64,000 bases of DNA from Megamonas hypermegale (GTDB lineage: Bacteria > Bacillota > Negativicutes > Selenomonadales > Selenomonadaceae). The notes beneath the pieces are model-generated. The model ran no database searches and had not been told where the DNA came from. It saw nothing but the letters and a program-made list of their open reading frames with translations. This document shows positions 1,204 to 2,918 of this stretch, piece by piece. The stretch covers positions 620,001 to 684,000 of the forward strand of contig NZ_LT906446.1 in assembly GCF_900187035.1 (NCBI RefSeq), in the 5' to 3' direction. The position numbers and the translations under genes are program-made. The stretch's first letter is position 1; each line of letters starts with the position of its first letter.

Positions 1204-1533
1204 TTGGATTATTTATTTAAGGAAATGGAAGAGTTTGCAGAATTAAACCATGTGCCGATTATTAAAGAAGCAGAGCGAAAGATATTTAAAGATATTATTG
1301 CTAAATACAAGCCAAAGCGTATTTTAGAAATCGGTACAGCCATTGGTTATTCTGCACTGCTCATGGCAAATTGCGGTGAAGGCATAAAAATAAAGACATT
1401 AGAGTTGTCAACTGAAAGAGCAGAAATCGCTCAATCTTTTATTGATAAATCACCGTATAAAGATGATATCGAAATCGTCATCGGTGATGCAGGTGAAAAT
1501 CTGTTATCACTTGACAAAGAAGAAATCTTTGAT
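1204..1533 (+). CDS. SAM-dependent O-methyltransferase, 5' exon (gene split by IStron)
   Basis: N-terminal 110 codons of a class I SAM-dependent O-methyltransferase (methyltransferase_3, catechol/caffeoyl-CoA type, YrrM-like). It starts with TTG at 1204 after a GGTAAG-like ribosome site. The SAM-binding motif ILEIGTAIGYSALLMA is present, followed by an acidic LELS strand and the IGDA segment. The frame runs into the inserted element at EEIFD; 22 further codons read through intron sequence before a stop at 1597 and have no family similarity. The missing half continues at 2649. Joined at base 1533/2649 the two parts give 199 residues without frameshift, a normal length for the family. The substrate is unknown; related genes sit between mltG and U32 genes in many Firmicutes. 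Confidence 0.88.
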
Positions 1534-1975
1534 TATTGTGAGCCTCACACTTGTGATTTTAATCATGAGTTAGGCGAACAAAATAGTCAGCGTATATAGA
1601 AATATGTACGTAGAGATAGACTAAGATCTATCCAATACTGTTTGAATTGCTGGAAAGCCCTAAAGATATCTGAACTACAACGTAAACATGAAATAAAGTT
1701 AAACGTGAATGTGGCGAAAGCAGAAAAAATCAGATATATAGCATAAGGTTAAATCCTAAGTGTTGAAAAATGGACAATCAGCAGCGAAGCTCCGAATAGG
1801 AGAACGTTCAACGACTATTCCTCTTGAGGGAAGTACTCAGTAAGCTATTGACTGAGGAAGTGGACAGACTCTAACAGGTAAAGCTGAGGGATAAGATATA
1901 GTCTGTGCCGTTACGAAAGTAACGGAAGTTCATAAGAGAACTGTATAGAAAGTAGCGTTTCTATATGAACGAGAC
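1534..1975 (+). ncRNA. Group I intron catalytic core (probable subgroup IA)
   Basis: Group I hallmarks in order: a candidate internal guide GTCAG (1586-1590) that can pair with the exon end TTGAT, placing G opposite the U before the splice site; a Q-like element ACAATCAGCAGCG (1774-1786); an R-like element with GACTA (1813-1817); and an S-like element AAGATATAGTC (1893-1903), whose TAGTC is the exact complement of GACTA and forms P7. Hairpins fitting P7.1 (about 1818-1832), P8 (CTCAGT 1836-1841 with ACTGAG 1851-1856) and a P9 stem CCGTTAC-GAAA-GTAACGG (1908-1925) follow. The pairings were found by eye, and the 3' limit of the core is approximate. Confidence 0.85.
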
Positions 1976-2093
1976 CTCATAATACGACTAAAGCAGAACC
2001 TACAGTTCTTGTATACGTTATTTAAAATAGGCAGTTAATATATAAACACTTGCTATATTGCTATACATATGTCATGATTATATTAGATGATAG

Positions 2094-2537
2094 TATGGAA
2101 GTAATTCAAATTGGGAAAAGGCTAGAGTAAAAGTAGCTAAATTGCATGATAGAATTGCCAATCAAAGACGCAATTTACTACATCAAGTGACATGTCAACT
2201 TATCAGAAACTACGATGTAATCTGTCTTGAAGATTTGCAAGTTGAAAACATGATGAAAAATCATAAATTAGCAAGAAATATAGCTGATGTCAGTTGGTCA
2301 GAGTTTATGAGACAACTAACATATAAAGCCAAATGGTTTGGCAGGGTTATTGTCAAAATAGATAAATTTTATCCTTCAAGCCAATTATGTCATATTTGTG
2401 GGTATAAAAATATTGAAGTAAAAGATTTAAATGTTAGAGAGTGGAACTGTCCTGAATGTAAAACACATCACGATAGAGATGTAAATGTAGCTATAAATAT
2501 TAGAGATGAAGGATTAAGAATATTAAACATAGCTTAA
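2094..2537 (+). pseudogene. tnpB: TnpB, 5'-truncated C-terminal fragment
   Basis: The open frame begins after the stop at 2091-2093 and reads [22 protein letters not shown], then a zinc finger (CHICG and CPEC) and [10 protein letters not shown] before the TAA at 2535-2537. These are the C-terminal half of the RuvC-like nuclease TnpB: the RuvC-II glutamate in CLEDLQ and the RuvC-III aspartate in HDRDVN are present. The N-terminal half, with the wedge, recognition domain and the RuvC-I aspartate, is missing; full-length family members are about 370-400 residues and only about 147 codons remain. No good start codon with a ribosome site is seen (a TTG occurs at 2142). The protein should be inactive as a nuclease. 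Confidence 0.88.
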
Positions 2538-2648
2538 TCTTGAATAACATATACAAGAACCGTAGGAACTATGGGGATAGCTCGGAGATACTGTATTCGT
2601 TAGAATACTTGACCGAGAACCCTGCGACTTTAGTCGTGGGAGGTTCAG
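2538..2648 (+). ncRNA. Omega-RNA-like 3' region of the IStron
   Basis: The region between the tnpB stop and the right border folds into nested stems: GCTCGG (2580-2585) with CCGAG (2613-2617) enclosing TATTC/GAATA (2594-2598, 2603-2607), then a terminal hairpin CGAC-TTTA-GTCG (2625-2636) and a GGGAGGTTCA tail reaching the border. In IS605 elements this segment is the scaffold of the TnpB guide RNA, with the guide taken from DNA just beyond the right end. Here the guide would be methyltransferase exon sequence from 2649 on. Whether the RNA is still made is not known; the partner protein is truncated. Confidence 0.6.
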
Positions 2649-2918
2649 ATGGTATTTATTGATGCAGCTAAGGGACAGTATTTAGATTATCTGCAAAAAG
2701 TATTGCCACATTTGACGAAAGACGGCGTTATTATATCAGATAATGTATTGTTTCGAGGCTATGTATTGAGTACAGAAAAGCCCCCTCGTCGTTATAAGAC
2801 GATTGTAAAAAGACTTAGAGAATACTTGCAAATAATAGAAGACAAAGATAAGTTTTTGACGACAATCTATGAAAATGGTGATGGCTTAGCTGTTTCGCAG
2901 AGAGTTTACAATGATTAA
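2649..2918 (+). CDS. SAM-dependent O-methyltransferase, 3' exon
   Basis: C-terminal 89 codons of the methyltransferase interrupted by the IStron. The frame opens with MVFIDAAKGQYLDYL, where the Asp of FIDAAK is the conserved metal/SAM-site residue of this family, and continues through VIISDNVLFRGYV to a TAA at 2916-2918. Its first codon happens to be ATG, but translation from it alone would lack the SAM-binding motif and be non-functional, so the segment is only meaningful after splicing to 1204-1533. The codons agree in phase with the 5' exon. The U32 gene follows after 17 bases. Confidence 0.87.
   Translation: MVFIDAAKGQYLDYLQKVLPHLTKDGVIISDNVLFRGYVLSTEKPPRRYKTIVKRLREYLQIIEDKDKFLTTIYENGDGLAVSQRVYND

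Follow-up and report, generated by a model that had tools for sequence, protein, structure and literature searches.

An O-methyltransferase gene of Megamonas hypermegale is interrupted by a 1115-bp insertion that we identify, with little doubt, as a non-autonomous group A IStron, in which a class IA2 group I intron is joined to IS200/IS605 ends and a tnpB remnant. Removal of the insertion by RNA splicing would restore the methyltransferase. The element occupies positions 1534-2648 on the forward strand of the window, the 64-kb stretch of DNA analyzed here. It lies directly 3' of TTGAT, terminates in TTCAG and is not flanked by a target-site duplication; the sequence around the borders reads ...AAATCTTTGAT|TATTGTGAGCC...GGGAGGTTCAG|ATGGTATTTATTGATGCAGC... 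The initial annotation had proposed an insertion with these two ends, and its placement proved exact to the base, the same borders recurring in the genome's 11 other copies. It had also proposed that joining 1533 to 2649 rebuilds a 199-residue methyltransferase across the FIDAAKG motif. The joined sequence is indeed a single open frame of that length, with a TTG start for the 5' exon as chosen in the open reading frame list. Among the 60 relatives' genomes searched, 44 gave an uninterrupted match, and the gene appeared split in the window's own genome. Across 29 aligned homologues the junction reads [F/Y]D|[F/M/L/V/I][V/I][F/Y][I/M/L]DAAK, stop-free and ungapped at the junction; gaps in this alignment fall within a variable loop, 3-6 residues before the junction. 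Relatives with a junction other than 1533/2649 were looked for, and all 29 homologues agreed with the predicted one. The methyltransferase of the sister species (genome G001) reads YKFD|MVFIDAAKGQY, insert-free. The features of the locus are collected in Table 1.

Table 1. Features of the interrupted methyltransferase gene and its IStron (window positions)
Feature	Position	Strand	Evidence
5' exon: N-terminal 110 codons of SAM-dependent O-methyltransferase (Methyltransf_3)	1204-1533	+	Pfam PF01596, E 9.2e-12; homologues
TTGAT target pentanucleotide; final 5 nt of 5' exon, expected TnpB TAM	1529-1533	+	12/12 copies in own genome, 5/5 in sister species
P1 5' strand UUGAU^UAUU (arrow, 5' splice site)	1529-1537	+	pairs with 1582-1590, U.G wobble at splice site
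Whole IStron insertion	1534-2648	+	identical borders in 12 copies; empty sites in relatives
Imperfect palindrome, IS200/IS605-type left-end hairpin within P1 loop	1549-1570	+	left-end fold; same overlap in Tourasse et al., 2014 (PMC4227781)
P1 3' strand; internal guide sequence GUCAG at 1586-1590	1582-1590	+	covaries with target among relatives
Group I catalytic core, P2-P9.1	1586-1925	+	RF00028; compensatory changes among 17 IStrons
P7 5' strand GACUA	1813-1817	+	invariant column block in 17-IStron alignment A1
P7 3' strand UAGUC	1899-1903	+	invariant in alignment A1
GAACGA motif after P9.2, start of IS component in published IStrons	1967-1972	+	sequence compared with Tourasse et al., 2014 (PMC4227781)
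Inverted repeat around ORF region, left arm (approximate)	1999-2028	+	self-match on opposite strand, 90%
732-bp internal deletion junction	2105	+	alignment to 1847-bp copies; same junction in C1:1061975-1063089
Truncated TnpB, 131 aa: TNB zinc-finger and RuvC-II/III parts, RuvC-I Asp lost	2142-2537	+	PF07282, E 1.9e-24; PF01385 tail
Inverted repeat, right arm (approximate)	2537-2566	+	self-match with left arm
Right end, presumed TnpB guide-RNA scaffold	2554-2648	+	right-end fold conserved in two genera
TTCAG terminus; G2648, terminal intron G preceding 3' splice site	2644-2648	+	12/12 and 5/5 copies
3' exon: C-terminal half of O-methyltransferase (MVFIDAAKGQY...)	2649-2918	+	PF01596, E 5.8e-9; junction alignment

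A covariance-model search identified the 5' half of the element as a group I intron. RF00028 was the sole Rfam match in the window, scoring 73.2 bits (E 1.1e-16) where the gathering score is 50. The core motifs agree with the initial annotation, with the P7 pair, a Q-like segment at about 1775-1787 and a GAAA-capped P9.1 hairpin at 1908-1925 each located. The IA2 subclass was read from the P7.1/P7.2 insert rather than from a subclass model. We aligned 17 IStrons, drawn from Megamonas, from other genomes of its family and from Clostridioides, without using structure; 46 of the 90 pairs of the consensus fold showed at least one two-sided compensatory change, including pairs in P2, P3, P4, P6, P7.1, P8 and P9.1. 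P1 is formed by UUGAU^UAUU and AAUAGUCAG, nine pairs with a U.G wobble at the cut. In the proposed pathway, the element entered the DNA directly 3' of TTGAT without duplicating its target; in the transcript, UUGAU of the 5' exon would pair with the internal guide GUCAG, and guanosine-initiated two-step splicing would remove nucleotides 1534-2648 and link 1533 to 2649, restoring the methyltransferase frame. Splicing in the cell is very likely judging from these sequence features, and the IStron identity and borders are strongly supported along with it.

The guide sequence changes together with the target among relatives. Elements with the guide GTCAG or GTTAG adjoin TTGAT, and elements with GTAAG adjoin TTTAT; the exception is one GTAAG element (L162) that apparently lies 3' of ATTAT, with one pair mismatched. 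The text of Tourasse et al. (2014; PMC4227781) makes no explicit statement of such covariation. Paired change of guide and target offers a simple sign that splicing is under selection. Four IStron-like introns (L159, L161, L163 and L164) carry the guide GTAAG and lie 3' of TTTAT. The first of these is a 499-nt intron-only element, and its removal yields a 718-residue frame, LLPAGLHHF|IYLPFIYGPAVCDGG; its host gene looks like one for a PTS-type membrane protein.

Twelve IStron copies occur in the window's genome, a single contig of 2.23 Mb. All lie 3' of WTTGAT and all terminate in TTCAG, and the 12 TnpB matches of the genome fall together with its 12 matches to group I introns. Nine copies are full, at 1833-1847 bp (the full-length element is about 1.84 kb); two, the window copy and C1:1061975-1063089, are 1115 bp long with the same 732-bp deletion, and the twelfth, at 835 bp, has a more extensive deletion. 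The core is nearly invariant across the 12. Identity among the copies is 97-100%, which indicates that the insertions are recent and also means that intact exons are by themselves no proof of expression.

Ten copies lie inside protein genes, every one of them in the sense orientation and every one restoring the frame when removed. The targets are genes for the methyltransferase, a CCA-adding enzyme, an asparaginase-like protein, a HAD phosphatase, a membrane protein, an aldo/keto reductase, a pilus-type protein and an ABC ATPase, together with pyrF and cmk. The names pyrF and cmk scored above NCBIfam cut-offs; for the CCA-adding enzyme and the HAD phosphatase we give the best match, which fell short of the cut-off, and we named the asparaginase-like, aldo/keto reductase and pilus-type proteins by reading their sequences. 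The catalytic DxDxT motif of the HAD phosphatase is split by its insertion (DFD|YT). Counted on 130 kb of the same genome, 63% of genic TTGAT sites are in the sense orientation, giving P ~0.010 for ten of ten. The sister species carries five copies, all genic, all sense and all with TTGAT/TTCAG borders; 15 of 15 for the two species together corresponds to 0.633^15, or ~0.001. Antisense insertions, which could not be spliced, seem to have been purged by selection. A codon-phase preference (nine of the ten genic copies sit at a codon boundary) was considered as further evidence and set aside, because TTGAT in coding frames of this genome is already 74% in phase 0 and never in phase 1, where it creates a TGA stop.

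Other copies and empty sites had been named in the initial annotation as a means of checking it, and both were found. A search of the window's genome at E<=1e-8 found none of the interrupted segments a second time in uninterrupted form. In the sister species, queried with all junction segments concatenated, at least seven of the ten orthologous sites are uninterrupted, and the sister species' own insertion sites are uninterrupted in the window's genome. Comparison of junction segments found no insertion common to the two species, so the sites are young. As judged from these comparisons, species-specific sites facing empty orthologues show past movement of the element.

The truncated TnpB and the loss of TnpA would also fit an ordinary IS605-type insertion that knocked out the gene and left the intron as a dead relic. 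We consider this improbable, given a core nearly invariant in 12 copies, core pairs that covary across genera, insertions in the sense orientation only and the occupation of single-copy housekeeping genes. A dead insertion within cmk or pyrF would be costly to the host. Somewhat less probable again is that scarless DNA excision by TnpA accounts for the borders and that RNA splicing is not the relevant process. Excision of IS200/IS605 elements brings together exactly this pair of bases, so a restored frame is no discriminator by itself; however, DNA excision has no need of the catalytic core, its covariation, the guide pairing or the sense-strand bias. Least credible is homing by the group I intron without any part played by the IS components, the TnpB piece being passenger DNA, an idea in keeping with the 499-nt intron-only elements of the same architecture in a related genus (L159) but at odds with the absence of any recognizable homing endonuclease in the element and with insertion beside a pentanucleotide at unrelated sites, the lack of target duplication, the conserved TTCAG end and the subterminal palindromes, which fit IS200/IS605 transposition.

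The transposon part of the IStron is heavily reduced in the window copy. The IS605-type right end claimed in the initial annotation is present, as an IS200/IS605-type end beside the truncated TnpB. Through the 732-bp deletion this copy lost its TnpA remnant along with the N-terminal end of tnpB, and the RuvC triad of the window TnpB is incomplete, RuvC-I being missing; a 372-residue TnpB frame is kept in eight of the nine full copies and broken by a stop in the ninth. The edges of the deletion common to two sites share microhomology of only ~1 base; the deletion therefore most likely arose once and then moved. The two 1115-bp copies differ at scattered bases, each shared with different full-length copies, so that recombination between IStron copies is also possible.

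The terminal ~100 bases form a conserved multi-stem fold closed by GAACC/GGTTC in Megamonas and one related genus, and include the right-end hairpin CCCTGCGACTTTAGTCGTGGG at 2620-2640. On the pattern of TnpB systems, we take the right end to be a guide-RNA scaffold, the first ~16 nt of the 3' exon to be the guide and TTGAT to be the TAM. The TnpB of full-length copies might use this scaffold, and splicing would part the scaffold from its guide. A conflict between intron and guide RNA in such transposons is reportedly the subject of work by Zedaveinyte et al. in Science in 2024. The window element resembles TnpB/guide-RNA elements of the IS200/IS605 group (ISDra2 and others) in its TnpB C-terminal domain, conserved right-end fold and TTGAT beside the insert. 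Unlike ISDra2-type elements, its TnpB lacks RuvC-I, and any guide RNA would require the TnpB of another copy. A weak Rfam match to the Enterococcus sRNA Ref70 was seen at 2554-2664 (25.7 bits, E 0.06, under the gathering score), spanning the right end plus 16 nt of the 3' exon; Ref70 itself may be a TnpB guide RNA.

The TnpA responsible for transposition presumably either acted in trans or has disappeared since. No cognate TnpA was recognizable in the window's genome, and judged against a complete IStron of the same family, TnpA in Megamonas is cut down to about its first 13 codons. That complete IStron (L155:2505-4038, genome G284) encodes both proteins in intact form, TnpA of 138 aa and TnpB of 369 aa. 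The same genome also holds a TnpA-less copy (L158), so mobilization in trans is possible there. This coexistence contradicts the text of Tourasse et al. (2014; PMC4227781), in which no genome had both TnpA-bearing and TnpA-less IStrons. The only Y1 transposases of the window's genome are in four near-identical 752-bp IS200-like elements (L043-L046, at C1:2045499, 246096, 1841807 and 1857592), unrelated to the IStron in ends and target. Each sits at the T-run that follows a terminator-like hairpin; with these sites and no meaningful similarity between their ends and those of the IStron, a role for them as trans-mobilizers is unsupported.

The initial annotation regarded IStrons as known mainly from Clostridium and took their presence in a Negativicute to suggest wider spread. 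That view is outdated. Tourasse et al. (2014; PMC4227781) list group A IStrons in Megamonas funiformis (MfISt1, 1839 bp) and Megasphaera, group B IStrons in Selenomonas, and further IStrons in Bacillus, Enterococcus and Fusobacteria; with Megamonas, Megasphaera and Selenomonas already published, the host range is not new. The window element is a TnpA-less, TnpB-truncated copy of these known group A IStrons. Judged on sequence, every group A feature in that text that was open to testing is present: an IA2-type intron in the 5' half, insertion 3' of TTGAT (the group's targets being TTGAT, ATTAT or TTTAT, without target duplication), a 3' TCAG end, and an IS200/IS605 ORF component that follows GAACGA and lies between the inverted-repeat arms. 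As described there, MfISt1 shares with it group A membership, the IA2 intron, the IS200/IS605 component, a TTGAT-type target, TCAG and a truncated ORF A, and its published length is exactly that of one sister-species copy. The window copy differs from MfISt1 in the extra 732-bp deletion of N-terminal tnpB, and its genome has 12 copies as against one per strain listed by Tourasse et al. (2014; PMC4227781).

Of moderate interest are the sense-only distribution, the covariation of internal guide sequence and target, the deletion common to two sites and the lack of a cognate transposase in the genome. Twelve near-identical elements in 2.2 Mb, ten of them genic, make a compact natural test set for splicing that protects the host from a transposon, and the genome sharpens the question, raised in 2014, of how TnpA-less IStrons spread. 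We tentatively suggest that TnpA-less, TnpB-truncated IStrons could be MITE-like mobile introns, moved in trans and neutralized by splicing, with a right end that might serve as guide RNA for the TnpB of sister copies and a ribozyme guide that co-evolves with the target pentanucleotide; we would put this at somewhat less than an even chance.

CdISt1 of Clostridioides difficile shares the TTGAT target, TCAG end and intron class, at ~68% DNA identity across the full element. An IStron on a C. difficile plasmid aligns to 81% of the query, with 73.6% DNA identity. Phage- and plasmid-borne IStrons were seen in Clostridioides phage ES-S-0173-01 (L153) and C. difficile plasmid CP103805.1 (L152), both genic and with the frame restored on removal. 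The intron of the plasmid copy starts with TAA, an immediate phase 0 stop, whereas the window intron starts with TAT where relatives have TAA. At window positions 1534-1599, a ribosome in phase 0 would translate 21 intron codons, the guide sequence among them, before meeting the stop at 1597-1599, and this could impede folding.
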